Below are positions 15,813 to 39,708 of a stretch of 40,143 nucleotides of DNA, in pieces. The stretch is taken from positions 1-40,143 of the IMG/VR virus record IMGVR_UViG_3300009314_000349; one strand, 5' to 3'. Position numbers and translations under genes: made by a program. How positions within the stretch are numbered: position 1 is the first letter of the stretch; each line of letters starts with the position of its first letter. This stretch comes from a virus. Below the pieces are notes generated by a model that made no database searches, was not told the origin of the DNA, and saw only the letters and a program-made list of their open reading frames with translations.

Positions 15813-16988
15813 TTATTTTTCATTTATGGTCCTAATTAATTTCACCAATAAGCTTGTTACCGCAATTTCTTTATCCACCACGAAAGTCGACTGAAACTGA
15901 GTCTCGGCTATTTCTAATATAACAGATGCTATATTTCCTTTTGCATAGTCATCTACATTATCAAATAGAAATCTATATAAATCTTCGAAATCTCTTACTT
16001 TACTATCTGATATTATTTTACGTATTGATTTGAATTTTTCTTTTGGTTCTTTATTGGATTTTAGTTCTTCTGCTATTTTTAGCATATAATTTGATTCAAT
16101 AATTGATTGTTTGCTAATCTTAAGTTTACCATTAATGGATTGTCGTTGAATCAAATTAATAGCTCTCCTCATATCCGGATATGTTGAATTAACAACTACT
16201 GCTAAATCAGATACATCATATTCCACTTGCTCTTTATTAAGAATTTTAGTTAATAATACAGCGACCTCTTTCCTGGATGGTGGTGTTATATGGTATACAT
16301 CGCAACGACTTTTGATTGGATCAATTATTTTTTCAACATAATTACAAGTTAAAATAAATCTTGTATTTCTAGATGATGCTTCCATTGTATTTCTAAGTGC
16401 TTGTTGAGAACCACCCATTCCACCAAATGATAAATAATCCGCTTCATCAAGAATTATAATTTTACGATCCTTAAATCCAATTGATGTTGCGAATGGTATG
16501 ATTTCGTTTCTAAGAAAATCAATATTACCTTTATCACTGGCATTAACATACATGAAATCACAATCTATATTCTTAACCAATAATTTTGCTAAAGATGTAT
16601 TGTGGCAAATAACACCATTAGATGTTATATATTCGTGTGGACTATCTATTGAAAAATCATAAACATCTTTAATAGTTCCTGATATTGCCCCCATCTTTTT
16701 TTTATTTCCATATATTGTATCAACTGTATCGGCATCTTTTATACATATAAATCTATTATTACATCTAACTAAATGTTTTTCATCACATTTAATATTTATA
16801 TCATCTTCAAATTTATATATATTTACTTGACCCTGTTTTTTTATTAAAGAATTAATACGTTTATATTTATTATATTGATTTTTAATAGCTAAATATCTAT
16901 TAATATCAACAGTATCATTATCATCAATATCCAATAAATTAAAAAACTTAAAAAGTTCTCCAACTGGTAACCTAAATTTCTTTTTCAT
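15813..16988 (-). CDS. 44: Clamp loader large subunit gp44, C-terminal extein with IntC of a split intein
   Basis: The first 130 residues are the C-terminal intein part; residues 131-391 are the C-extein. The intein part holds block B (CDEKH, H72) and ends DFSIDSPHEYITSNG and VICHN, with penultimate His129 and Asn130. The extein starts TSLAKLL, completing a P-loop with the other fragment. It has Walker B ILDEAD, the sensor segment FILTCNY and the arginine-finger motif SRC, so it is an AAA+ clamp loader ATPase. After trans-splicing the protein would be 316 residues, close to T4 gp44 (319). The sister fragment is at 17110-17358. The ATG start gives no strong ribosome-binding site. Confidence 0.92.
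   Translation of the reverse strand: MKKKFRLPVGELFKFFNLLDIDDNDTVDINRYLAIKNQYNKYKRINSLIKKQGQVNIYKFEDDINIKCDEKHLVRCNNRFICIKDADTVDTIYGNKKKMGAISGTIKDVYDFSIDSPHEYITSNGVICHNTSLAKLLVKNIDCDFMYVNASDKGNIDFLRNEIIPFATSIGFKDRKIIILDEADYLSFGGMGGSQQALRNTMEASSRNTRFILTCNYVEKIIDPIKSRCDVYHITPPSRKEVAVLLTKILNKEQVEYDVSDLAVVVNSTYPDMRRAINLIQRQSINGKLKISKQSIIESNYMLKIAEELKSNKEPKEKFKSIRKIISDSKVRDFEDLYRFLFDNVDDYAKGNIASVILEIAETQFQSTFVVDKEIAVTSLLVKLIRTINEK
16599..16988 (-). other. IntC, long C-terminal half of an atypically split intein in gp44
   Basis: 130 codons from an ATG to the CHN|T junction. Because the N-terminal half (27 residues) stops before block B, this half carries block B and the C-terminal splicing blocks F and G. 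That short-N/long-C arrangement is the known 'atypical split' type. Residue +1 is Thr, an acceptable splicing nucleophile. Block B has CDEKH where a TxxH would be usual. Confidence 0.88.
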
Positions 16989-17097
16989 AAAACTGTTTAT
17001 TTTTATTTACATAATAATCAATCCAACCATCATCATGCGAGTTTGCGGTTCTAGCATGACACGAATGGCATAAGAATATTAAATTAGTATATGTTTT
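16972..17097 (-). pseudogene. 3' remnant of an HNH homing endonuclease gene between the gp44 halves
   Basis: An open stretch of 41 codons with no start codon reads KTYTNLIFLCHSCHARTANS and then DGWIDYYVNKNKQ. NLIxLCxxCHxxT is the second half of the HNH finger (two Cys and the final His) common to phage HNH endonucleases. Upstream it meets a TAG, so the N-terminal part has been deleted. It sits exactly in the break between IntN and IntC, where intact split-intein loci often hold a free-standing endonuclease gene. Confidence 0.8.
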
Positions 17098-17109
17098 CTA
17101 GAAAATATT

Positions 17110-17358
17110 TCAAATTTCATATTGTTTTAGTATCTTATATTCATCATCAGATACTTCCATCTCAATATCAATATACTCAGAATAATCCAAACATTTGCCC
17201 GTCCCAGCTTTCCCATATAATAATAGATTTGGGATTTCGCCACTTTCTATCCATATTTTGACGCTCTGTATTAATGCTTCATTGCCCACATAATCATCTA
17301 AATTTTGGGGGCGGTACCGCTCATTCCAGAAAAAATGTTCTTTATTTTTGTCAATCAT
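17110..17358 (-). CDS. 44: Clamp loader large subunit gp44, N-terminal extein with IntN of a split intein
   Basis: Residues 1-55 are the N-extein: FFWNERYRPQNLDDYVGNEA is the canonical clamp-loader N terminus, and it ends LLLYGKAGTGK, most of the P-loop. Residue 56 is Cys1 of the intein, and after 27 intein residues (C56-I82) a TGA stop follows. The protein alone cannot bind ATP properly, because the P-loop Thr is on the other fragment (GKAGTGK|T). The break is not a simple nonsense mutation, since a splicing-competent C-half with its own ATG lies downstream. Confidence 0.92.
   Translation of the reverse strand: MIDKNKEHFFWNERYRPQNLDDYVGNEALIQSVKIWIESGEIPNLLLYGKAGTGKCLDYSEYIDIEMEVSDDEYKILKQYEI
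17113..17193 (-). other. IntN, 27-residue N-terminal half of an atypically split intein
   Basis: Begins CLDYSEYIDIEM, that is, block A with the catalytic Cys1, and ends in KILKQYEI before the stop. At 27 residues it is close to the roughly 25-residue IntN of AceL-TerL-type inteins and far shorter than the usual about 100. Acidic IntN (DIEMEVSDDE) and lysine-rich start of IntC (MKKKFR) suggest charge pairing of the halves. Confidence 0.88.
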
Positions 17359-22509: not shown

Positions 22510-23262
22510 TTAGTTTTTAACTCCATAAACGAAAATATATCTGCCGTCGTATTTATTTTCAGCTATTTCTCCATCTTTATCGAAAGAACCGAATTTAATA
22601 TCATGAAAATCATCTTTCATATAATATACCACTTCTTCAACTTTATGTTTCCAAGTTCCAGCCAATCGTCGATTGTCTGTACTAAAACGATGTTTTATAT
22701 ACTTATAATAATTAACTGATGTTAGCCAAATTTGACCGCCACTATTTACTACTTCTTTGATTACATCAAAAATATGCTCCATTGAATTTAGATCTAATAC
22801 CTGCAATACACCAATCATAGTGCAGAGATCATATGTTTTAATGCCATCGTTATTTGGTATATTAAATAGATTGTCATTTATAAATTCTACATTATGATTT
22901 TTATTTTCTTTTTTAGCATAATCAACAAAATTTGGTACGGCATCGACGCCAACAATATTGTCTATTTCATGATTTGATATAACATAATCTATAAACTCTC
23001 CAGTTCCACATCCAATATCGATAAATGAATCGACCGTGCTGAAATCTATAAATTTGCATGCCAAAATATAATTATTACTCATCGCGGTCTTAGTATTCCA
23101 AAGCAACCGTCGGTAATTCGATTTGTATTTCGTATAATACTTATTCTGATATTTGTATAGTATATCAGTATTTTTAGTTCTTACTTTTCTCTTTTGATCA
23201 GCTCTTAAATTAAGAGTTATATCACTAAAGTCTATGTCTCCGTCTTTATAATTGTATATCAT
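22510..23262 (-). CDS. Class I SAM-dependent methyltransferase
   Basis: A 250-residue methyltransferase. Motif I is FIDIGCGTGEF, followed by VGVDAVPN (motif II acid) and a later acidic segment FINDNLFNIPN. The C-terminal half is typical of small-molecule methylases rather than DNA methylases: there is no (D/N/S)PP(Y/F). The N-terminal 70 residues are basic. Its ATG directly follows the stop codon of the polymerase C-terminal gene as TAGATG. The substrate is unknown; a modified sugar or base is possible. Confidence 0.8.
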   Translation of the reverse strand: MIYNYKDGDIDFSDITLNLRADQKRKVRTKNTDILYKYQNKYYTKYKSNYRRLLWNTKTAMSNNYILACKFIDFSTVDSFIDIGCGTGEFIDYVISNHEIDNIVGVDAVPNFVDYAKKENKNHNVEFINDNLFNIPNNDGIKTYDLCTMIGVLQVLDLNSMEHIFDVIKEVVNSGGQIWLTSVNYYKYIKHRFSTDNRRLAGTWKHKVEEVVYYMKDDFHDIKFGSFDKDGEIAENKYDGRYIFVYGVKN

Positions 23263-24126
23263 CTAAAAATCAAAAAATTTATTTATGTTTTTATTTATTA
23301 ACGCATTAATCTCGCCCCAGCCCAAAGCTTTATAGAATGAATTTAATTTATTTACCAGCAATAATTCAAAGATTTTATTTCGGTCTATATATTTTTCAAT
23401 AAATTCAATAATTTCTGGCGGATCGTCATATCCCCGATAAGATAAAGATTCAAATTGATATGGATTGTCTTTCAAGTAAACACTCTTAATTTTATCTTTA
23501 TTCCTGATGTGCTCGTAATCTTTTGATTGATCAAATATATTAATCAAATCATTATAATATATACATCCTTTTATATGTGATTGAGCTCCTTTTTTAATTT
23601 CAGTCAATCCTCCTGGTGTTTTTCTTCCAGAATACTTACCAATACCATTTACTGAAGATGGTCGAGCGATATCTTTTACTTCAATTGAATTTATTTTTTC
23701 TTTGAATTGCTCAATATGTTTATCCAAAAACTCTTTTGACTTAAACTCTAATATATGCATTAATGTTTCCTTCATAAACTCACGCATACTATTTGGAAAA
23801 TCACTACGTACAGTATCCAATCCCTTTACATCTAATTTTGGTTTTTCAAGTCTCACGCCCTCTTTATCAACTATTAGTAATGCATATCGTTTCTTTACAT
23901 CTAACCAAAATCCGGATTTTGCTACAAGTTCTTGCTTAATTTTGTAGCTATGATTTTTAACACAATGAAATCCATTTGAATAATTTTTATACGAATCATT
24001 AATAAAGTTTTGTATTTCTCTAGTGATTTCAAGTGTTTTATTAATCATAAAAGAATCATTTTCATAATCCTCAGTTGGATATCTTTTTTCAATAATTGGT
24101 AAAGTTGAAAAGAATAATGAATCCAT
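23263..24126 (-). CDS. 43: DNA polymerase B, C-terminal fragment (gp43B-like)
   Basis: The palm and thumb part of a family B polymerase. It begins MDSLFFSTLPIIEKRYP; the DS continues motif C (YIDT|DS) of the other fragment. KKRYA at 78-82 is the conserved Kx(K/R)Y motif, and KGLDTVRSDFP (101-111) the following turn. The C terminus NINKFFDF resembles the clamp-binding tail of RB69 polymerase (MFDF), so this half carries the sliding-clamp contact. Start: the ATG sits immediately after the stop of the N-terminal fragment in the same frame. Without those six bases the two form one 911-residue enzyme (T4 gp43 is 898). Confidence 0.9.
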   Translation of the reverse strand: MDSLFFSTLPIIEKRYPTEDYENDSFMINKTLEITREIQNFINDSYKNYSNGFHCVKNHSYKIKQELVAKSGFWLDVKKRYALLIVDKEGVRLEKPKLDVKGLDTVRSDFPNSMREFMKETLMHILEFKSKEFLDKHIEQFKEKINSIEVKDIARPSSVNGIGKYSGRKTPGGLTEIKKGAQSHIKGCIYYNDLINIFDQSKDYEHIRNKDKIKSVYLKDNPYQFESLSYRGYDDPPEIIEFIEKYIDRNKIFELLLVNKLNSFYKALGWGEINALINKNINKFFDF

Positions 24127-24129
24127 CTA
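24124..24129 (-). other. In-frame stop-start junction TAGATG within polymerase motif C
   Basis: Read on the minus strand the junction is GAT ACG TAG ATG GAT TCA. All codons are in one frame, and deleting TAGATG gives YIDTDS, the expected motif C. The same six bases form the junction between the C-terminal fragment and the next gene (23260-23265). This favours termination with immediate reinitiation over an accidental nonsense mutation. Confidence 0.85.
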
Positions 24130-26004
24130 CGTATCGATGTAAGCACAATAATCTACTTGATTATTTTTTGATGCACTTACATCGATATTTAACTCTTTAT
24201 TATAAAATAAATTTGCAACTTTTTCTGAATATGTTATTAATGTCCTTCCACTCGACGTTGTTGCTTCCGCATTATCTAAATCATACCAACGAAATGATTG
24301 CAGACCAAGACACCCATAAATTGAGTTAAGCAAAACCTTTTGCCTTTCCTGGAGTCTATCGAAATACTGATATTTCTTTGATCCTTCTTTATGTTCATCG
24401 CGTTTTTCCTTTACATCATCGCGCTCAAAAGACCACAATTCAAGTATATTTGGTATCAAACCACGTTTTTCAAGTGAATAAATTATTCCATTGGATGATA
24501 TAGAACAATTATATTTTATCAACAATTTCCTTAATTCAGAATACGTAATCAATAATTCATCTGAGTCAAATATGACTCTTATATTTGCGTCTTTATTATT
24601 ATAAAACTCATATGGGTCAAATTCAAATACTTTGCCTTTTTTTGTTTCTGGAGATATATTCAATGTAATAATTGAAAACGGATACATTGATTTTAAGTCT
24701 AAATCAAACATCCACTTAAACCTACCTGGTTTTGGTGGTTTAACTCTAGCTCCTGTAAACTCGAACGATACCTTATAAGTTTTATCTATATATTCTTTTA
24801 GTGGTTCCTTTAATATGAAATAGTTCCCCTTATATTCTTTATAGTCGACATATACAAATGAGGATTTTGATTTCTTTATGCCTAACATACCACTTAATGG
24901 TGTTTCTTTTGGTATGCTTCTAACATATAATTTTGATTCATCTAAGTTATGATCTCGAGATAATACAAGTTTGATTTCTGGTTTTTTATTGGGTGATACT
25001 ATTTCATTATTTTTCAAATACGTTAATATCGCTCCTTCTAAATATCTAGACGACATAAATATATCTTCGTATGGTACGTGTCCTTTATGACATACCATCT
25101 TAGTCAGTTCAATATGGTTTAATTTTTCATCAAGTTGTTTTACAATTTCAACATCACGAAAACAATACTCAATAAATCCTTCGATGTCTGTATTGTATAG
25201 ATCATCCAATGATTTGTCATATTTTACCTTGCCAAGTCCTATCTCCAATTCACCAATAAAATCAAGTGAATATGCTTGTTTCTGGTTTGATTCGAATTTC
25301 TTATATAATAATAAATAGTCTAAACAATTTACACCAGCTATTTTATATTCACCGTCGTTATAATGATCCTCTTTAACTATGTTAATTGGACTTAATTGTT
25401 TTGCTACATCTTCACCAAATATATTGGTATACCTATTATATAGATATGGTATATCAAAGTTATTTATATTCCAACCAGTTAGTATCGTTGGTTTGATTTT
25501 GTGTAATATATTAATAAATTCATCCAATAAAGATACTTCATCTTTGAATGATATAATTTTAACATTTTTCTTATTTACATCTTTTATAATGTCGCTTTTA
25601 TCAAGAAGAAGTAGTATAGATGAATCTATCTCTTTTATCCAACATGATATTGCAGTTACCTCTTGCTCAGCTAATACTTGGTCTGGGAAACCATCAGCTG
25701 ATTCGACTTCGATATCAAAAAATAGTGTAATATGATTTTTGGATGGTTCATCTGATAGTCCGTACTTGTCGATCAAAAACCTTATTTCTGGTTTTACATC
25801 TGATTCATATAATAAACTTTTATCATATTCTTTAACCTTATATCCCGGTATCCTCTTAACAGTTTTGCCATCCAGTGTATTATACATACCACCAGCATCT
25901 AATACATAGGCATACGAATTGTATTTGGATTTATAGTATCCTTTAGCATCGTCGAAGACGTGCATTACATAACTTTCTCGATCGAAAAAAAGATTTTGGT
26001 ACAT
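24127..26004 (-). CDS. 43: DNA polymerase B, N-terminal fragment (gp43A-like)
   Basis: A 625-residue protein with a 3'-5' exonuclease domain and most of the palm and fingers. Exo I is DIEVE (D97, E99), Exo II NNFDIPYL (about 181-188), Exo III YCFRDVEIV (280-288). Polymerase motif A is LDLKSMYP with catalytic D436, and motif B is KVLLNSIYG (556-564). The protein ends in CAYIDT, the first half of motif C. The first motif C Asp is D624; the second (the catalytic one, RB69 D623) lies just after the Met of the next protein. The break is TAG ATG in the same frame, with no intein or endonuclease gene present. The likely state is a two-subunit polymerase. Confidence 0.92.
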   Translation of the reverse strand: MYQNLFFDRESYVMHVFDDAKGYYKSKYNSYAYVLDAGGMYNTLDGKTVKRIPGYKVKEYDKSLLYESDVKPEIRFLIDKYGLSDEPSKNHITLFFDIEVESADGFPDQVLAEQEVTAISCWIKEIDSSILLLLDKSDIIKDVNKKNVKIISFKDEVSLLDEFINILHKIKPTILTGWNINNFDIPYLYNRYTNIFGEDVAKQLSPINIVKEDHYNDGEYKIAGVNCLDYLLLYKKFESNQKQAYSLDFIGELEIGLGKVKYDKSLDDLYNTDIEGFIEYCFRDVEIVKQLDEKLNHIELTKMVCHKGHVPYEDIFMSSRYLEGAILTYLKNNEIVSPNKKPEIKLVLSRDHNLDESKLYVRSIPKETPLSGMLGIKKSKSSFVYVDYKEYKGNYFILKEPLKEYIDKTYKVSFEFTGARVKPPKPGRFKWMFDLDLKSMYPFSIITLNISPETKKGKVFEFDPYEFYNNKDANIRVIFDSDELLITYSELRKLLIKYNCSISSNGIIYSLEKRGLIPNILELWSFERDDVKEKRDEHKEGSKKYQYFDRLQERQKVLLNSIYGCLGLQSFRWYDLDNAEATTSSGRTLITYSEKVANLFYNKELNIDVSASKNNQVDYCAYIDT

Positions 26005-26369: not shown

Positions 26370-27521
26370 TTAACATTTACTCCACGAACAAGATTTGCAG
26401 CGTATGCATCCCTCTTGATATATCATTTCACCGCCACACTCAGGACATAGCACACTAGATTTATCACCGTCATTAATATATTTTTTCAATGTTCGTGAAA
26501 TAGCTTTACTAAATGATGCTATTGATTCACCCGATTTATTCAGTTGTTCCATTGCATATTTAACGCCGCCGCCGTGTCGTAATCCCCATGATAAAATTCT
26601 AGTGAGAGATTCTTGCTCATCACGTTCAAACAAATTTGTAATATCATTGAATTCTATTGTGTCTGGTATTTCTAGTTTATAATGGCCGCTCTTATGTCGT
26701 GTTAATAATCCTTTTGTAAATTTTGGTGATATAGTTATTTTATCTTGTTTGAATGCAAAAACTTCATATGGATCTCCTTCTAATAAACCAACCAATACAA
26801 CCCATTTTTTACCAAGAGCTGTTATTTGGTGTATATCACAATCAAGTATTTTTGGACGTTTTGGTGCTGAGTTATGTTGGATTTTAGTCCCATTTCTATC
26901 TAAATCGTTATTTGATATCAAAACACCGGCACGACAACCATCGCGATATACTGTAATGCCCTTGCAGCCTGATTTCCAAGACTGCTTAAATATATCTGAT
27001 ATTAATTCTTCTGTTGCTGTATTTGGTAAATTAACTGTTACTGATATTGAATGGTCGACCCACTTTTGTATTTCACCTTGCATTTTAACTTTATCCAACC
27101 AATTAATGTCATTTGCAGTTGATCCAAAGTATGGAGATTTTTCAAATATATTATTTAACTCATCATCTATTTTATCCTCAATATTAGTATGCCCCATCAA
27201 TTCCATCCAGTGTTTTAGTTTTGGATGAAATACATTATATTGTTCCCAACTATCACCCGAAGCATCCGTATGATGTACCTTTGCATCAACATCATTTGAA
27301 TTAATTTTTTTATTTCTTTTATAATATGGCATAAATAACGGTTCAATGCCCGATGTGGTTTGTGTTAATAATGATACAGTATTGTGCGAATATATCCCAC
27401 CATCTAGTTCATAATAATGATCGTTCTCAACTTCAATATCCATTGTTTCAGCAACATTATCATCTACACTAATCACAGTTAATTCTTCATATTGTATATT
27501 CTCTATATTAATCTTTTCCAT
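26370..27521 (-). CDS. nrdJ: Ribonucleotide reductase NrdJ, C-terminal fragment with IntC
   Basis: The first 47 residues are an IntC half: ETMDIEVENDHYYELDGGI then SHN, ending with the penultimate His and Asn. The extein begins TVSLLTQTTSGIEPLFMPYY, the class II reductase loop. Its end, LCPECGGEMIYQEGCIRCKSCSWSKC, is the C-terminal zinc-ribbon/redox Cys region found in NrdJ. It thus supplies the C-terminal part of the B12-dependent enzyme, which makes dNTPs without oxygen dependence. It needs trans-splicing with the 28694-29740 protein. The start overlaps the upstream homing endonuclease by 14 bases. Confidence 0.92.
   Translation of the reverse strand: MEKINIENIQYEELTVISVDDNVAETMDIEVENDHYYELDGGIYSHNTVSLLTQTTSGIEPLFMPYYKRNKKINSNDVDAKVHHTDASGDSWEQYNVFHPKLKHWMELMGHTNIEDKIDDELNNIFEKSPYFGSTANDINWLDKVKMQGEIQKWVDHSISVTVNLPNTATEELISDIFKQSWKSGCKGITVYRDGCRAGVLISNNDLDRNGTKIQHNSAPKRPKILDCDIHQITALGKKWVVLVGLLEGDPYEVFAFKQDKITISPKFTKGLLTRHKSGHYKLEIPDTIEFNDITNLFERDEQESLTRILSWGLRHGGGVKYAMEQLNKSGESIASFSKAISRTLKKYINDGDKSSVLCPECGGEMIYQEGCIRCKSCSWSKC
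27381..27521 (-). other. IntC of the second NrdJ split intein
   Basis: 47 codons ending SHN|T, where Thr is the first extein residue. The block F region includes MDIEVENDHYY. Partner IntN lies at 28697-29041. The extein joint reads MLTVAPTG|TVSLLTQT, the family consensus. Confidence 0.9.
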
Positions 27522-28632
27522 AATTCATAATTATTTCATCCACTATTTTATTTATTACACCATCCGGATCTTTGCGATAATCATATTCCCACACTATTAT
27601 TACATTGGAATTTATTTTCTTTTCTAGTATGGAGATCCGTTTTTCGTCTCGTTCCCATGTTTCTTTTACAAATTCTTGCGAAATATCATATATTAATGGA
27701 TTTTTATGCCAGAAATCACCATAAAATTCGATAACCAAATTTATATCTTTTATATACATATCTGGGACTATTATCCTTACATCATCTTCAAATATAAAAA
27801 ACATATATTCTGATTCCCCGTAATAAAAATTGCTATATTTATGACAAAGTTTCTTATATATTTCTTCACAGAATTCCAAACCAATATCAGAATATCTTTT
27901 GGTTCTTTCTATTTTCTTTTTTGTTAATTCTAGATATCTCCTATTACCGTCTACTTCACCATATTTTTTTATCCAATCCTCTTTCAAGTGCTTATTGGTA
28001 TTCCTCCAAATCTCGTATTTTTCTTTACCTTCTACTTCACCATATTTTTCGATCATTGTTCGTAGTGTCGTTCCTCTTTTTGCATTTGTTTCCAAATACC
28101 GTCTTTTACCATCTACATCCCCATATTTATTTATAAATTTATCTAAACTTGCTGTATTTTGATATTCGGATAATTTTCTTTTTGCAAGTTGAACATCACC
28201 GTTAGTAACATCCATCCAATAATTTAATTTTCTAATTGACTTCTTTTTTGATTGATCCACTTTAGATAATGCGGCCAATGATTTTCTTTTAAATTCATTA
28301 TATTTTTCTTCACCACTAATGCGGCCATATCTTTTTATAAACGCGTTTAAATCTTGTCTAGTATCTTGTTTCCAATTCTCATATTTTTTCTTACCATCTA
28401 TTTCACCATATTTTTTAATCATTTTATCCAAAGAAACCCCCGAATTCTTTTGTATATCTTTCCATTCGTCGTATTTTTTCTTACCATCTATTTCACCATA
28501 TTTCAATATATATTTTTCTAATGACACCCCCCTAATAAATCGGTAATATTGATTCATTCCCTCTATTGGTCCATGTTCTTCAACTAGTTTGTTATATTTT
28601 TCCAAATACGATATTTTTTTTATATTTCTCAC
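27508..28632 (-). CDS. Vsr-like homing endonuclease with repeat DNA-binding region
   Basis: A 374-residue free-standing homing endonuclease between the IntN and IntC halves of the second NrdJ intein. The C-terminal domain has PDMYIKDINLVIEFYGDFWH (D291, E302, H309) and then KETWERDEKRISILEKK, and VIIVWEYDY, the layout of Vsr-type nicking endonucleases. The first 236 residues contain seven clear copies of a roughly YGxxxGxxKYxxW unit, which I expect to make repeated contacts to a long DNA target. The start is a GTG seven bases after AGGAG. This is the typical neighbour of split inteins in phages. Confidence 0.85.
   Translation of the reverse strand: MRNIKKISYLEKYNKLVEEHGPIEGMNQYYRFIRGVSLEKYILKYGEIDGKKKYDEWKDIQKNSGVSLDKMIKKYGEIDGKKKYENWKQDTRQDLNAFIKRYGRISGEEKYNEFKRKSLAALSKVDQSKKKSIRKLNYWMDVTNGDVQLAKRKLSEYQNTASLDKFINKYGDVDGKRRYLETNAKRGTTLRTMIEKYGEVEGKEKYEIWRNTNKHLKEDWIKKYGEVDGNRRYLELTKKKIERTKRYSDIGLEFCEEIYKKLCHKYSNFYYGESEYMFFIFEDDVRIIVPDMYIKDINLVIEFYGDFWHKNPLIYDISQEFVKETWERDEKRISILEKKINSNVIIVWEYDYRKDPDGVINKIVDEIIMNYGKD
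27925..28575 (-). repeat. Tandem YG-x3-G-x2-KY protein repeats in the homing endonuclease
   Basis: Seven repeat units of the type YGEIDGKKKYDEW occur in the N-terminal part, plus one degenerate copy. Copies 2 and 3 are almost identical (YGEIDGKKKY). They show as repeated DNA of matching period, mostly 26-31 codons apart. Confidence 0.8.
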
Positions 28633-28693
28633 TATTGCTCCTATTTATGTTCCTTTAGTATAAGTATAGAGCAATAGTAAAAATATCAAATAT

Positions 28694-29740
28694 TTATTCA
28701 ATTTTCTTAATAATAATATCACCAACCCGTAAATCAACTGCCTTCTTCCATATTGCTTCTTTATTATTTAGTTTAACTAAAAATTTATGATTCATGGTTG
28801 ACTCCAACAAATTATCATCGCTCAATCTAATTCTTTTCGTGTTATATTCACCCGCCCAATATAATTTCGTGATTCTATTCTTCTCACCAAATATATTATA
28901 CACATATATATCCTGGGTTGGTTCTATCCACATATCTCGTAGTCCCCTAAGTCTCTCCAGATCATATCCATTAACCAAAAATAATTCTGCCAATGTTATA
29001 TATCCGTGATCTGTTTTAATTTTAGTTGAATCAACTAAACACCCAGTCGGCGCGACAGTTAACATTGATATATTTCGTCTACCATATTTTTTGTAATCAT
29101 CCAATAAATCAGGTTCAGCTTCCATTATTCTTTTAATAAATGGATTATCTTTTTCTTTATCTAAATTCCATATTGAAAAACTACCTCTCTCTTTTGATAG
29201 ATTAATTGATTCACGATATGATTCTATTGCCAATAATTTATGCACGCGTGTAGAGAATCCAATGGCCTTTTTACTAGCATATTGAATACCCAATGCGGCT
29301 AACATGTCTCCTTCAGCTGTGATTCCAATTCCTGTTCTGCGACCAGCTGATGTTTTGTGATAAATATTTTCCCATAGGCGTTTTTCAACCAATTTAATCT
29401 CGGGTAGTTCTGGATCATTATCTATTTTTGTAATAATCACTTTAATTTTTTCAAGCTCCAAATCAATAATATCGTCCATAATACGTGTAACAAATCCAAT
29501 ATGTTGTTTAAACAAATCAAAATCAAATTTTGCTTTTTTTGTAAATGGATTTGAAACATAACTATATAAATTTATTGCTAATAGACGACAAGAATCAAAA
29601 ATACACAACGGAATTTCTGAACAATTGTGGACCAATAAATCATTAGCAAAAAAGTTATTATTTTTTTTAACTTTCAAATCATAAACAGTTTCATTCTTAT
29701 GAATATTGATTTTTTTTATTTTTGTTTCTATAACTTTCAT
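28694..29740 (-). CDS. nrdJ: Ribonucleotide reductase NrdJ, middle fragment with IntC and IntN
   Basis: A protein with an intein half at each end. Residues 1-39 are IntC (ends LLVHN), then a 194-residue extein from CSEIPLCIFDSCRLLAINLY to MLTVAPTG, then a 115-residue IntN beginning CLVDSTKIK. Within the extein, GRRTGIGITAEGDMLAALG is characteristic of class II/III reductase folds. The first extein residue is Cys, which is both the intein +1 nucleophile and, by homology with NPCSE, the thiyl-radical cysteine of the reductase. The start is chosen at an ATG that overlaps the upstream endonuclease stop by ATGA. Confidence 0.93.
   Translation of the reverse strand: MKVIETKIKKINIHKNETVYDLKVKKNNNFFANDLLVHNCSEIPLCIFDSCRLLAINLYSYVSNPFTKKAKFDFDLFKQHIGFVTRIMDDIIDLELEKIKVIITKIDNDPELPEIKLVEKRLWENIYHKTSAGRRTGIGITAEGDMLAALGIQYASKKAIGFSTRVHKLLAIESYRESINLSKERGSFSIWNLDKEKDNPFIKRIMEAEPDLLDDYKKYGRRNISMLTVAPTGCLVDSTKIKTDHGYITLAELFLVNGYDLERLRGLRDMWIEPTQDIYVYNIFGEKNRITKLYWAGEYNTKRIRLSDDNLLESTMNHKFLVKLNNKEAIWKKAVDLRVGDIIIKKIE
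28697..29041 (-). other. IntN of the second NrdJ split intein
   Basis: 115 codons beginning at Cys1 (CLVDSTK). Block B is STMNHKFLV, with the TxxH pattern. It ends at DLRVGDIIIKKIE before a stop. The extein ends APTG. Confidence 0.9.
29624..29740 (-). other. IntC of the first NrdJ split intein
   Basis: 39 codons, ending LLVHN|C. The block F region reads VYDLKVKKNNNFFANDLL, similar in length and sequence to the C-half of the known NrdJ-1 split intein (about 40 residues). It rejoins the extein as STNP|CSEIPLC. Confidence 0.92.
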
Positions 29741-30504
29741 TTGTCTGCCTTTCTTTCTAGTTTCCAAGTTTCCACCTCATCTTTGAATTTAAGTGAACAA
29801 TAGGGTAAAATATTTTCTATCAAAATAAATTCTATATTTTTATCTTTTAATTGTTCACCTAATACTTCAAATTTCCAATTATTATTTTTCCAATAGCCTT
29901 TAACTTCTATAATTTTTGTTATCTTGCTATTTTCAAATATAAAGAAATCTGGCCTATATTTCTTGCCTCCCACATTATACATTTCTACTTCAACGTCCCA
30001 ATCAAATTTATTTTTATTAAGCCATTTTGCAAAAATATATTCCCAAGAACTTCTTAACCAAACGAATTTATTTCTGCTCTCATTAAAAAAATAACCTTGG
30101 ATCCCCCTCTGTATAGAATTTCTTATTTTTGTCTTTCTTCTTGATTCTTCAGAAAACCATCCCATATTGTTTTCTCTCTCATATTCTATTTTTTCCCTTC
30201 TTAGTTTGCGTAAATTATCTGTTATTTCTTCATAACTCCTCAATTTTATTTCAAAAAAATTTAAGAAACACTTTCTAAGAACTGGGTAAGAAACATTCAA
30301 TTTGAAATATTTTATAAAATATTTTATGCCAAATCCTTTTTCATAATAATATTTTTCAATAATCTTTTTAGAATTTTCATATCTTTTGTCATTTTTAATT
30401 TTTTCAATATTATGAAATCGCGCCTTACCTTTAACATCAAAAAATTTTTGCTCATATATATCAGATATAAAATTTCTAAACTCATCTAAATTTTCATTTT
30501 CCAT
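29737..30504 (-). CDS. PD-(D/E)xK-type homing endonuclease
   Basis: A 255-residue free-standing endonuclease gene between the IntN and IntC of the first NrdJ split intein. The catalytic core is WLRSSWEYIFAKWL (E155), YRPDFFIF (D186) and IIEVKGYW (E200, K202), the E-PD-ExK pattern. The basic N-terminal 130 residues have two helical regions. The closest established type is the Vsr/EDxHD-like homing endonucleases linked to split inteins in phage genomes. It overlaps the next start by ATGA and is preceded by a 50-base gap after the IntN stop. Confidence 0.85.
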   Translation of the reverse strand: MENENLDEFRNFISDIYEQKFFDVKGKARFHNIEKIKNDKRYENSKKIIEKYYYEKGFGIKYFIKYFKLNVSYPVLRKCFLNFFEIKLRSYEEITDNLRKLRREKIEYERENNMGWFSEESRRKTKIRNSIQRGIQGYFFNESRNKFVWLRSSWEYIFAKWLNKNKFDWDVEVEMYNVGGKKYRPDFFIFENSKITKIIEVKGYWKNNNWKFEVLGEQLKDKNIEFILIENILPYCSLKFKDEVETWKLERKADK

Positions 30505-30554
30505 AAATCTGTGCCCATCTTTAATATACTATATATATCACGAAAATAAATTTT

Positions 30555-31757
30555 TCAACTTTTTTCATCAATCTTTAATAAAATATCTTCTTCACAAAGC
30601 TGGCACGCATTGACCCATCCTCTATTTTTAGTAAACACTTTATGGTCTGGTGTTAAAACAAGTGTTGAATTATCTTCTAAAATTAATTCTATAGTATTCG
30701 CATTTCTTTTTGTCAATAATATATCCTCTATTTCATCTTTTTCTAGTTTGTTTTCTTTAACATTAAACGAATCAATAATAAATTTTTCACCATTATTAAA
30801 TCTTTCAAAAATTTCTTTAACTGTCAATTTGCCAATATTGGTTGTTATTATTGTATCGCCCGAAACACATGGATTCGTGCTCACTGTTTCAAATCCATCT
30901 GATTTATAACAATCAGCTGGACTTTCAGATATAATTTTATCCCAAAATAATATTCCAGGTTCAGCAGTATTCCAAGCATTAAATACAATTTGATTCCATA
31001 AGTCAATAGCATTAACTTCTTTTGTCTGTTTTATATCATCGCCAGTTGCATTAATTGGAAATGTATGTGTAAATTTTTTATCAGCAATAACCGATTTCAA
31101 AAATTCATCAGTCAATTTTATAGACACATTTGCTCCAGTAACTTTATCTAAATTAGATTTAATCTTAATAAATTCAAGTACATCGGGGTGTTTTATCGAT
31201 AGTGTTAGCATTAAAGCACCACGACGACCGTCTTGTGCTACTTCCCTAGTTGAATTAGAATATCTCTCCATAAATGAAGTAACACCAGTTGACGTTAATG
31301 CTGAATTTTGTACAGATGAATTTGATGGTCTTAAGTGCGACAAATCATGTCCAACTCCTCCCCTACGTTTCATCAGTTGAACTTGTTGTTCGTCAGTTTT
31401 TAATATACCACCATATGAATCTGCCGGTGGATCACTGCCAACGACAAAACAATTTGATAAGGATGTAATCTGATAGTTATTTCCTATGCCGGCCATTGGT
31501 CCGCCTTGTGGAATAACATATTGAAAGTCTTTTAATAATTCATATATTTGTTGTCTGGTTATTGGATTATCATATGTATTTTCCACTCTAGATATTTCAT
31601 CAGCCAGTCTATTGTGCATATCATCTGGAGTTAGCTCATATATATTTTTATCTGAGTCCTTTAAAGCGTATTTATTGATCCAAGCTATAGCTGCTAACTC
31701 ATCACCATCAAAATACTGTTTTGTTTTTTCTAAAACATCATTATAATTGTATAGCAT
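30555..31757 (-). CDS. nrdJ: Ribonucleotide reductase NrdJ, N-terminal fragment with IntN
   Basis: The first 296 residues are the N-extein of a class II reductase: PQGGPMAGIGNNYQITSLSNCFV (with a redox cysteine), the RRGGVGHDLSHLRP loop and the substrate-site DGRRGALM. It ends ETVSTNP. From C297 the 104-residue IntN follows (CVSGDTIITT), with block B LVLTPDHKVFTKNRG. The extein rejoins in the middle fragment as NP|CSEI. Its start has a strong ribosome-binding site (AGGAGG, 10 bases before the ATG). The enzyme makes deoxynucleotides with adenosylcobalamin. Total spliced NrdJ is about 826 residues. Confidence 0.94.
   Translation of the reverse strand: MLYNYNDVLEKTKQYFDGDELAAIAWINKYALKDSDKNIYELTPDDMHNRLADEISRVENTYDNPITRQQIYELLKDFQYVIPQGGPMAGIGNNYQITSLSNCFVVGSDPPADSYGGILKTDEQQVQLMKRRGGVGHDLSHLRPSNSSVQNSALTSTGVTSFMERYSNSTREVAQDGRRGALMLTLSIKHPDVLEFIKIKSNLDKVTGANVSIKLTDEFLKSVIADKKFTHTFPINATGDDIKQTKEVNAIDLWNQIVFNAWNTAEPGILFWDKIISESPADCYKSDGFETVSTNPCVSGDTIITTNIGKLTVKEIFERFNNGEKFIIDSFNVKENKLEKDEIEDILLTKRNANTIELILEDNSTLVLTPDHKVFTKNRGWVNACQLCEEDILLKIDEKS
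30558..30869 (-). other. IntN of the first NrdJ split intein
   Basis: 104 codons beginning Cys1 (CVSGDT). Block B, LTPDHKVFTKNRGW, matches the TPDHPVYTKNRG of the known NrdJ-1 split intein closely, and the insertion site appears to be the same, so this is probably the same intein allele. Confidence 0.9.
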
Positions 31758-36731: not shown

Positions 36732-38339
36732 CTATTTTTTATCATCTTTTGTTTTTTTAATTTTTTTTGTTATATGTCTAAATAACAATACCGGTGCTGC
36801 TTTATCCTCTGTTTTAACATCAATTTGAATAAAAGAATCATTATTACCATCTACTTCAATTATCATTTTAGTTCCATCGTGTGATGTTTTGAGTGGTTTT
36901 TTTATACCAATACAATAATAATTTGGTGGTTTTAATTCAACATTCCCTGTGCGTTTATTTGCTATTGATGTACTTACATCTGCACCGCAGCCATGTATAT
37001 CACTCCACATTTTAATGAGTTGGTCTTGTCCCGCATCTGTTTTGGATAATTCCTCCATTTTTGAGAAAAACATATTCATATATTCCTTCTTAAAATCTAC
37101 CTTTTTTTGTTTTTTCTCTTGAACAGACATCGAATCATCCCACTTGTGTTTTTCTCTCATAGCTAGAACAACATCATCTACTTCTTTTCCAGCGTCACCC
37201 AAATATGTTACTCCAGCGTCTGTCATTCCAGCATTTTTCATTGTAATTCTACTCGGATCAGAATATATTTTGGCTGATAATTTCGTGTATTTAGTGTTGC
37301 CTTCCTTATCTTTATAGGTAACCACGATATCGGTTGGATCCGTTCTATTGGATATTCCCATTTTTTCTAATTCCAATTTACCTATTCCACCAACGGCTAA
37401 ACAATCCGTAACCTTAGATCCTTCCGGCAATGCTTCTAATATAAGTTTTGCTGTTTTTTTATTTATATCATCATATTTTTGTTCTTCGGTTTCTCCAGCT
37501 CCAATTAGTTCTGTTTTAGCAGATTCATATATATCTTTATTTTCTTTACTTGAAAAAACATAAGATGCAATTCCACTCTCATTGTGAGCTCCATAGTATG
37601 CTGATCCGGTTCTTCTGCCACTTGATCGGAGTGGAACGTCTATTCCTTCAGCCCTAATAATTTTTATCATAGCAGCTGTTAGTTGAGTTCCACTACTTTT
37701 AGTAATAAATTTATATGGTAGTGTTGTATTATCTGATAAATATATTTTTTTACTTTTAGATCCAATTGGAGCCTCTATTAAACCATATTCAACCATTTCA
37801 CGTATTGCTGATACTTGGTCTTCATAGTTATCCGATTCCATAAATTTATTAATTGATTGCTTTAGAATTTTTATTCTATCTTTTGTGGTTTGATCAGCTT
37901 GTTCGGTCATCGTATCCATATTTGATAAGATTTCGGAATAATCCTGTTTAGTTTTATCAGATACACTAATTACATCCTTTTTCTGTTTGGTGTCTTCAGT
38001 TTCCTTTTTATCTTTACCTTTACTATCCTCTTTTGCTTTTTTCACTATTTCATCATCAGATAGTCCAGTATCACCGCCCTTCTCATAAAATGTTCTAGCA
38101 TACGCTAGTGTAACCATGTCCTTTTTTTTATTTGGACTCGGATTTGGATTGGGTACCATTTGTTCTTCATTGATTTCGCCACGAATACTCGACATTACTT
38201 CTTGAATTTGATCTTCTTCAATGTTCATATCTCGCAATATTTCAATTAAATTTGCTTGATGTACAATATTTTTAGTATCAATTACACCATTGGGTATACT
38301 TTGTGCCCACTTTTTAAGTATTAATTTTTGATTTATCAT
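36732..38339 (-). CDS. Large protein of unknown function, 535 aa
   Basis: I do not recognise it. The N-terminal 60 residues are helical (LKKWAQSIPNGVIDTKNIVHQ). Residues 60-160 are highly charged and likely disordered (KGKDKKETEDTKQKKD). A structured central part reads IRAEGIDVPLRSSGRRTGSAYYGAH, then a domain with GKLELEKMGISNRTDPTDIVVTYKD and an AKIYSDPSRITMKNAG segment. The last residues are lysine-rich. The segment DPTDIVV-x-KLSAKIY is reminiscent of restriction-like D-x(n)-ExK or DxK cores (D...xAK), but I cannot show a complete site. It overlaps the PolA-like gene by 4 bases. Confidence 0.7.
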   Translation of the reverse strand: MINQKLILKKWAQSIPNGVIDTKNIVHQANLIEILRDMNIEEDQIQEVMSSIRGEINEEQMVPNPNPSPNKKKDMVTLAYARTFYEKGGDTGLSDDEIVKKAKEDSKGKDKKETEDTKQKKDVISVSDKTKQDYSEILSNMDTMTEQADQTTKDRIKILKQSINKFMESDNYEDQVSAIREMVEYGLIEAPIGSKSKKIYLSDNTTLPYKFITKSSGTQLTAAMIKIIRAEGIDVPLRSSGRRTGSAYYGAHNESGIASYVFSSKENKDIYESAKTELIGAGETEEQKYDDINKKTAKLILEALPEGSKVTDCLAVGGIGKLELEKMGISNRTDPTDIVVTYKDKEGNTKYTKLSAKIYSDPSRITMKNAGMTDAGVTYLGDAGKEVDDVVLAMREKHKWDDSMSVQEKKQKKVDFKKEYMNMFFSKMEELSKTDAGQDQLIKMWSDIHGCGADVSTSIANKRTGNVELKPPNYYCIGIKKPLKTSHDGTKMIIEVDGNNDSFIQIDVKTEDKAAPVLLFRHITKKIKKTKDDKK

Positions 38340-39673
38340 AGTTTATCTACATTTATTATATTGAAATAATCATAACCAATTTTAACTGATGTCGGATATT
38401 TTCCTTCACATTCCAAAGTATTCTTAATATCCGTAATCAATTCACCCCCATCAGCTTTATTAAAATCAACCAATATGCTATCATAAGTATATAATATTAT
38501 TTTTGATTTGAAACTATCCAGTAGTTTAACGACCTTATTAATATTCATTATACTTGTTTCCGATTCCATTGATTGAATTAAATAGTTAAACAGTTTATTT
38601 GGACTCATATCATCGATAGATGATTTTTTGATTTTCCTCTTAAAAATCGGACTACAGATATAAGTATCATTTTCAAAACTTTTCCATTGTTCTTCTATGT
38701 AAGAATTTGTTAAATTGAAAAATGGTATGCTCAAGAAATCCTCATCTATGCCGCCATACAATATATTAAAATTTATTTTTTTTGCTTCTGCAATTTCATC
38801 TTCAGTCAGTGATTCTTTATTATAATAAAATCTACCCAGATATTCATGAGCACTCACGTCCTTTGGAAATGTATAACCAATTAAAGATGCAACCAAATAT
38901 AAATGATATGCTGTATGGTCAAATTGGATCATCATGCCATCTTTGCCAAATCTACTAATAAAGCACTCTCGATCTTCGTTATTATTGATTGCAGAAAAAT
39001 TTACGCCACCAAATGCATTGCTCGTACGACCTGTGCGTGTGAATATATTATACTCGCTGTACACAAGAGATGACACTAGTTGATTGTAGTTAAACAAGTG
39101 ATGGAATCTATCAGTTACTTTTAATCCATTTTTTTCAATATTAAACAATGTATCATTAAACGCCAGATCATAGTATGCAAATTGATCGGTGATTTTTGTA
39201 TTTTTATAGAATTCTATAAAATTATCTCTGATCTTATTACACATTTCCACTATTTTTATAAGCGGTACTATGTCAATAATATTCTTGATATTGCCACGAC
39301 GTCTAGTATAATATGATATACAGTTATTTTCATATGATTCTATGTCAATTGGATTATTTGTATAAAAGTAATTCAATGTATTATAATCAAACATTGATTC
39401 AAATTTCATATGATACATGAACCTCTTTTTGTTTAATACAAAAACCAGACCATCGAGTTTTATTTTGTCAATTAACTTTTTATCCACTAGTGATTCGGAA
39501 TGATTTGATGGAATCACATATGTATTGCCGCCAATTACATGAATATAAAGCAGACTGATTCGGTTATTAACCGAATGTTTGTTTATATCAGAATATATTG
39601 GAATCAATAATACATTCTTTTTGGAAGCATCTTCCAAAAAAACATTAAAGCCATCTAAATTATCAATAATCAT
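38336..39673 (-). CDS. Divergent family A DNA polymerase-like protein
   Basis: A 445-residue protein with the core of the PolA palm and fingers. TRTGRTSN (212-219) and GGVNFSAIN precede motif A at MIQFDHTAYHLYLVASLIG (D252). Motif B is AKKINFNILYGG (K298/K299, Y306, G307). A PolA-like IQSMESE segment is near 367-373, and motif C is LYTYDSIL (D398). The usual Glu of motif A (DYSQIE) is His, and HDE of motif C is YDS, so it is far from the classical enzymes. There is no 3'-5' exonuclease motif in its N terminus. It is extra to the family B polymerase. I chose the ATG at 39673; an in-frame TTG lies 5 codons upstream. Confidence 0.8.
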   Translation of the reverse strand: MIIDNLDGFNVFLEDASKKNVLLIPIYSDINKHSVNNRISLLYIHVIGGNTYVIPSNHSESLVDKKLIDKIKLDGLVFVLNKKRFMYHMKFESMFDYNTLNYFYTNNPIDIESYENNCISYYTRRRGNIKNIIDIVPLIKIVEMCNKIRDNFIEFYKNTKITDQFAYYDLAFNDTLFNIEKNGLKVTDRFHHLFNYNQLVSSLVYSEYNIFTRTGRTSNAFGGVNFSAINNNEDRECFISRFGKDGMMIQFDHTAYHLYLVASLIGYTFPKDVSAHEYLGRFYYNKESLTEDEIAEAKKINFNILYGGIDEDFLSIPFFNLTNSYIEEQWKSFENDTYICSPIFKRKIKKSSIDDMSPNKLFNYLIQSMESETSIMNINKVVKLLDSFKSKIILYTYDSILVDFNKADGGELITDIKNTLECEGKYPTSVKIGYDYFNIINVDKL

Positions 39674-39677
39674 TATA

Positions 39678-39708
39678 CAAATATACAAAAAAAACTTGAA
39701 TTATCAAA
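39678..39708 (-). promoter_or_regulatory. Probable Bacteroidota-type promoter of the PolA-like gene
   Basis: Minus strand: TTTG, 19 bases, TATATTTG: a full match to TTTG-N19-TAnnTTTG. The TATATTTG box ends only 4 bases before the ATG, so transcription would begin at or near the start codon and the mRNA would be leaderless or nearly so. Confidence 0.5.

Follow-up and report, generated by a model that had tools for sequence, protein, structure and literature searches.

The family-B DNA polymerase gene (polB) of the 40,143-base virus record IMGVR_UViG_3300009314_000349 (this whole stretch is called the window below) is split on the minus strand by an in-frame TAG-ATG inside the catalytic motif C. 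A strong RNA hairpin is predicted directly ahead of the stop. The same layout was found in a distantly related virus, apparently by separate origin, which suggests a translational trick more than a broken gene. Judging from the sequence, we consider it about an even prospect that a hairpin-assisted stop-start junction yields a polymerase of two chains, divided within its catalytic turn.

The first frame, gp43A (24127..26004, minus strand; 625 aa), encodes the N-terminal part of the polymerase, with the exonuclease, motif A (DLDLKSMYP), motif B (KVLLNSIYG) and the first half of motif C (..AYIDT). The second, gp43B (23263..24126, minus strand; 287 aa), encodes the C-terminal part, which begins with the M-DS of motif C and includes KKRY and all that follows. 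Pfam matched gp43A to PF03104 (exo1; 2.5e-27) and PF00136 (DNA_pol_B; 5.1e-19), and gp43B to PF00136 (DNA_pol_B; 4.3e-6, profile positions 264-349); across both halves, the exonuclease and PolB domains, motifs A, B and C and KxY of a T4/RB69-type gp43 are all present. gp43A ends with ..NNQVDYCAYIDT and gp43B starts with MDSLFFSTLPIIEKRYP. When the minus strand was read directly, the break was GAT ACG TAG ATG GAT TCA. Within the motif C coding region (24118..24141, minus strand; TAC ATC GAT ACG, then TAG ATG, then GAT TCA), the TAG stop of gp43A (24127..24129) follows T625, and the ATG that starts gp43B, also in the ORF list (24124..24126), stands behind it with zero gap. The TAG-ATG is six extra bases in frame, behind T625 and ahead of the motif-C Asp-Ser (YIDT/DS), with no residue lost. 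This reading bears out the preliminary description, according to which an in-frame TAGATG splits motif C of a DNA polymerase B so that D624 comes near the C terminus of one protein and the catalytic Asp at position 2 of the next, with no gene inserted at the break. D624 is the penultimate residue of gp43A, and gp43B has the second Asp of motif C at its position 2; the two ORFs abut, and no gene lies between the halves.

In an alignment of 27 polymerases, D624, T625, D628 and S629 were invariant in all 27. Both window halves keep the conserved motifs and are rather divergent, having the second and fifth lowest mean identity among the 27 rows. The closest isolate match was Microcystis phage Mel-JY01, whose uninterrupted 848-aa enzyme reads YIDTDS and is 38% identical. 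An AlphaFold2 model of the read-through frame, made with 26 relatives, had a pLDDT of 84.8, and its best PDB matches were RB69 gp43 (E 2.5e-53, TM 0.75/0.77), the gp43 fold being recovered. The break lies in the turn between model strands 620-624 and 629-633. Chain continuity is imposed in such a model, so that it locates the break and has no bearing on the assembly of separate chains. Approximately at residues 341-411, gp43A carries an insert of about 70 residues that is absent from Mel-JY01 and modelled with pLDDT blocks of 49-61; a similar stretch occurs in L013, an assembly of the second virus described below.

The same 18 nt were present in two further assemblies of the window virus, L002 (IMGVR_UViG_3300009373_000044) and L003 (3300009320_000011). 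A gap-free alignment of the window to the 75 kb contig behind L003 spans 39,670 bp and contains 8 mismatches; the samples from which these assemblies come are perhaps not independent. Motif C was uninterrupted in 82 of 82 other aligned loci (the 83 loci being a first set of 80, in which the window virus stands once, as L003, together with L004, L005 and L006). A second set of 80 loci comprised 78 uninterrupted ones, one truncated before the site and one interrupted, the second virus. Viral contigs were scanned for YxDT-stop-ATG-DS, which gave nine contigs with a TCN serine, four of them polB, and no match with an AGY serine at the same junction. When any codon was allowed after the stop, YID gave 7, YTD 1 and YVD 6 contigs, 14 in all; the four polB contigs among these came from two viruses, each with ATG after the stop, and the YTD and YVD matches were all due to chance. 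These scans demanded exact spacing in a single register, and the any-codon version covered TAR stops (without TGA) and TCN serines only. The same junction gave 13 matches in genome_contigs, none of them polB, and DNA searches of isolate phages returned 1 and 3 records with short, weak matches only. There are only two independent cases of interrupted motif C, and the search for this junction in related genomes, proposed in the preliminary description, is what brought the second to light.

The second virus is represented by two assemblies, L007 and L013, which share 24,575 bp with 2 mismatches. Its junction reads TAC ATC GAC ACG TAA ATG GAT TCA, or, with the sequence ahead of it, TACATCGACACG-TAA-ATG-GATTCA, in which a 13-bp perfect inverted repeat ends 3 nt before the stop. 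In DNA comparisons with the window it gave four short matches only, of 66-80% identity. Its gp43A (624 aa) stops earlier, bears an additional tail and is followed by small ORFs; a 27-codon frame, MKIKNIQKIEVDVDTSGPSDHNIYIDT (MKIKNIQ..NIYIDT), leads into the TAA, and gp43B begins MDSVFF. In the sister locus L097, polB is in three pieces with further ORFs between them, and the last piece reads MIIKKIERVEVPVEKLEQSDWNIYIDTDSVFF unbroken; L098 and L120 resemble L097. The ORFs inside polB of the relatives of this virus sit at other residues than the motif-C break. By eye, two ORFs (230 aa and 339 aa) between the polB pieces of L097 (61-4858) look HNH- or nuclease-like, and the extra tails of its pieces may be halves of degenerate inteins that act as docking tags; Pfam confirmed neither intein-like tails nor nuclease-like ORFs around the split polB of L013 and L097.

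In a gp43B tree of 35 rows, L007 stood firmly beside L097, and the window row had a long branch (1.03) and an unsure placement. Well-supported branches force two changes, none (0%) of 200 bootstrap trees joined the interrupted pair, and a tree constrained to hold the two interrupted rows together was rejected (p-AU 2.5e-6). As far as the gp43B sequences tell, the two interrupted junctions were apparently acquired separately; short-tract transfer between the two viruses may be compatible with the protein tree.

That the gene was recently broken and is dying, or that the break is an assembly artefact, is quite unlikely. The sequences are indeed metagenomic contigs with no isolate, from samples that may not be independent. 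Against this, three assemblies of the window virus and two of the second virus agree, and the 914-codon frame of the window, which stays open across the TAG, holds no other stop. Between the second virus and L097, gp43B gave a dN of 0.045, a dS of 0.57 and a dN/dS of about 0.08; because of this low ratio and its very short end branch (0.003), gp43B of the second virus appears free of decay. A second intact DNA polymerase, which the preliminary description had named as contrary evidence, was not encountered, there being no further PolB match in the virus's own record or in the 75 kb contig. A weak PolA-like ORF (38336-39688, minus strand; 450 aa) fell under the curated cut-off; by eye, it has YDS at the place of PolA's last motif. 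PolA-like matches, all under the curated cut-off, occurred in four of the ten records searched (the window virus and G006-G008) and in none of the other six, Mel-JY01 included, several records being fragments. Since G006-G008 carry the PolA-like match together with an uninterrupted PolB, the PolA-like gene is not a replacement.

Pfam found no intein (no PF14890 match) on gp43A or gp43B. The precursor with an intein or endonuclease gene at DT/DS that the preliminary description had proposed looking for was not recovered, Pfam showing no intein and no gene lying between the halves. Genes fractured by split inteins have reportedly been described by Dassa in 2009, and inteins need Cys, Ser or Thr as the residue after the break. 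The window phage does have a gene of this kind: its ribonucleotide reductase (RNR) is in three pieces on the minus strand (30555-31757, 28694-29767 and 26370-27521; span 26370-31757), with Pfam intein matches of 28.5 bits on the first piece (below the cut-off of 35.8) and 52.7 bits on the second. In polB, unlike such genes, Asp follows the break, and a split-intein fracture was rejected as neither half carries a recognisable N or C intein fragment. Of the fragmented genes of this phage (RNR, clamp loader and polB), polB alone lacks recognisable intein remains. The following details were seen by eye or as weak matches: the third RNR piece has an intein domain, and two ORFs between the RNR pieces (29737-30504 and 27508-28632) are nuclease-like. 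The clamp loader (15813-17358, minus strand) seems, by eye, broken in Walker A, where GKAGTGK runs into an intein-like start led by Cys and, in the second ORF, ..ICHN precedes TSLAK; Pfam gave no intein match there.

The hairpin predicted ahead of the stop by folding and stem search (24132..24187, minus strand) is 56 nt long, within the coding sequence, with 22 bp and a bulge: a 16-bp lower stem (arms 24172-24187 and 24132-24147), a 7-nt bulge, a 6-bp upper stem and a 5-nt loop, AAGUA. The Y-I-D codons lie inside its 3' arm, and its foot is 2 nt ahead of the TAG, compared with 3 nt ahead of the stop in L007. Against dinucleotide shuffles, the window hairpin had a z of -4.48, and 0 of 200 were as stable. 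The 75 nt through the Thr codon were folded at 160 sites (119 distinct), and the window (-23.2 kcal/mol) and L007 (-21.1 kcal/mol) were the two lowest; the 158 uninterrupted motif-C sites had a mean of -7.8, an sd of 2.6 and a minimum of -14.1 kcal/mol. These 158, all of which match polB downstream, were taken from 161 loci by requiring a readable YxDTDS and 75 nt ahead of it, which dropped L004, L005 and L147. Stems ending within 6 nt of the motif-C site were 16 bp in the window and 13 bp in L007, and at most 10 bp elsewhere. The same lengths stood out among 79 distinct stop-ATG junctions that are in frame and flanked by open frames, where the other 77 had at most 10 bp (survey of 193 sequences, the loci and the window, of 1.77 Mb, partly overlapping). 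On synonymous recoding at the window's codon frequencies, the observed energy was reached in 1 (window) and 2 (L007) of 2000 trials, and the observed stem length in 97 and 782 of 20,000, respectively. Part of the complementarity therefore comes with the protein sequence, and stem length is less telling than folding energy. Paired positions vary between the two viruses with the pairing kept, and neither the loop nor the sequence is alike. The 5' arm of the window hairpin falls within about 7-8 residues that are absent from many, not all, relatives.

An internal control is provided by the next gene, a methyltransferase (22510..23262, minus strand; ORFs and stem search), which is joined to gp43B by another zero-gap TAG-ATG (23260-23265). 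This ordinary stop-start junction has only an 8-bp stem before the stop, which indicates that reinitiation alone needs no such hairpin. The hairpin, which the preliminary description does not mention, is the strongest sign of a programmed event.

A hairpin at this place might instead be a protein-binding or plain translational operator of the split gene's gp43B, with no ribosome being moved. It overlaps the 30S binding region expected for the AUG, and in the available text of PMC3014915, gp43 of T4 and RB69 binds a hairpin operator upstream of its own start, T4 gp43 repressing its own mRNA. The same text gives the T4 operator as 18 bases with a -UAAC- loop, about 40 bases upstream of the gene 43 start, whereas the window hairpin has 56 nt, the loop AAGUA and a position inside coding sequence; moreover, the hairpin of the second virus has another loop and another sequence than that of the window. 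We therefore consider an operator improbable.

For the hairpin-assisted stop-start junction, we infer the following course of RNA folding in the cell and of ribosome behaviour. The translating ribosome would unwind the hairpin and terminate at the TAG with the ACG codon in its P site, and the hairpin would begin to refold behind it, loop side first. As the lowest pairs could form only after the ribosome has moved forward, refolding would favour a 6-nt step, which would place the AUG in the P site, where the ribosome would restart. As long as no upstream ribosome arrives, the hairpin would stay closed and also impede independent initiation at the AUG, which would keep production of the halves in step. 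They would then reassemble as one active T4-type polymerase, whose catalytic beta-hairpin would be formed by AYIDT, the last strand of gp43A, together with MDSLFF, the first of gp43B. Any codon was allowed after the stop in the scans, yet ATG stands there in both viruses, which speaks for a start codon. Some observations count against this course. Placing a carboxylate and an amino terminus next to the metal site seems costly, and the break has no tail or drift, in contrast to the split polB of L097. The divergence of the window halves and the long branch of the window's gp43B weigh on the same side. In L007, the first catalytic Asp would after reinitiation be carried by a peptide of 27 aa, which would require a three-chain enzyme; this 27-codon frame speaks for continuity. 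If two chains are made and meet in the active site, as the preliminary description supposes, this would be a replicative polymerase with its metal-binding motif broken between its two aspartates, and the presence of a free carboxylate and a free amino end within the turn would test the tolerance of the site.

Continuity could be obtained by an in-frame stop hop, in which peptidyl-tRNA(Thr) would release ACG, the ribosome would slide 6 nt with help from the refolding hairpin, re-pair on AUG (A-U, U.G, G-C) and resume at GAU, reading nine nucleotides as one Thr and giving a continuous YIDTDS. From the sequence this is a possible reading, held tentatively. The hop product is the exact consensus in both viruses, each with a 6-nt insert and no residue removed, and in the second virus the extension MKIKNIQ..NIYIDT, which the sisters L097 and L098 have in one chain with gp43B, would stay attached only through continuity. 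Stop hops occur in synthetic constructs, according to the text available of PMC5009743, and for the bypassing of T4 gene 60 the accessible part of PMC11194080 proposes that mRNA refolding behind the ribosome aids forward sliding. The layout of both viruses, ACG TAR ATG and then GAY, suits a hop, with codons that match only in part. On the other side, a hop would favour a matched ACN landing codon, whereas both viruses have ATG, and the any-codon scans of viral contigs (YID, YTD and YVD) gave no polB with an ACN landing. ACG at the Thr codon was dropped as evidence for a hop because it is common at that position (32 of 118 distinct uninterrupted sites). Moreover, the foot of the hairpin lies within the ribosome footprint at the stop, so the hairpin could not be complete there. 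It is doubtful, though conceivable, that two lineages separately gained a hairpin-driven 6-nt hop of this kind, with full-length enzyme coming only from ribosomes that jump the TAR; if they did, in-frame stop hopping would occur in nature, and it might serve as a switch or protect against nucleases homing to motif C. The two-chain course and the hop share one step, hairpin refolding that would reward a forward movement of a few nucleotides: if the peptide is released first, restart at the AUG would give two chains, and if peptidyl-tRNA is retained, landing on the AUG would give a continuous enzyme. As two lineages pair the hairpin with TAR-ATG at one and the same residue, this is directly testable with two short sequences in a reporter.

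Continuity by reading through the stop, by a suppressor tRNA or a recoded TAG, would give YIDT-X-M-DS and is very unlikely. The open 914-codon frame would allow it; TAG, on the other hand, ends 5 of the 51 other listed ORFs outside polB (7 of 53 with gp43A and gp43B), and no tRNA gene, suppressor or other, was found in the window or in the possibly incomplete 75 kb contig. A recoded or suppressed TAG is disfavoured on these two counts. In addition, the stop of the second virus is TAA, and two extra residues in the catalytic turn occurred in 0 of the 82 + 78 uninterrupted loci.

Split T4-type enzymes can work, as the available text of PMC2988022 reports for 43A/43B of phage 25, whose halves are active and co-purify, and for NrdA of Aeh1. 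The Aeromonas phages 44RR and 25 resemble the window virus in making a T4-type PolB from two adjacent cistrons. In 44RR, gp43A has 498 codons, the break is before motif B, and a 49-nt gap is followed by 43B with an SD-like AGAGGA before it, whereas the window polB is broken in motif C, with zero gap, no evident SD and a hairpin in coding sequence; the untranslated gap and the break upstream of motif B that mark the 44RR/25 type are thus absent from it. In the 49-nt gap of the split gene 43 of 44RR (L095 1173-1221), an 8-bp hairpin ends 18 nt before the 43B start. Archaeal PolB is also split, in Methanothermobacter and, with a split intein, in Nanoarchaeum; the likeness to the window would be a family-B polymerase of two chains. 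T4 gene 60 shares with the window junction that an essential T4-type phage gene carries the insertion, and further a stop right after the take-off codon, RNA hairpins and, if ribosomes do move here, their forward movement. It has matched GGA codons and a 50-nt gap, within which a hairpin sits at the A site; the window junction has 6 nt, unmatched ACG/ATG and a strong hairpin upstream only, the gap hairpin at the A site being absent. In the synthetic stop hops of E. coli, one amino acid likewise takes up nine nucleotides that include a stop, although in constructs with matched codons (PMC5009743, text available). The available text of that 2016 review holds that in-frame stop hopping could explain some supposed read-through and states that no natural occurrence is known, so that one chain made here would be such an occurrence. 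Neither a natural in-frame stop hop nor a polymerase split at motif C is described in the accessible text of the literature searched on bypassing and split phage polymerases. With either outcome, two chains or one, the interrupted polB is unusual.
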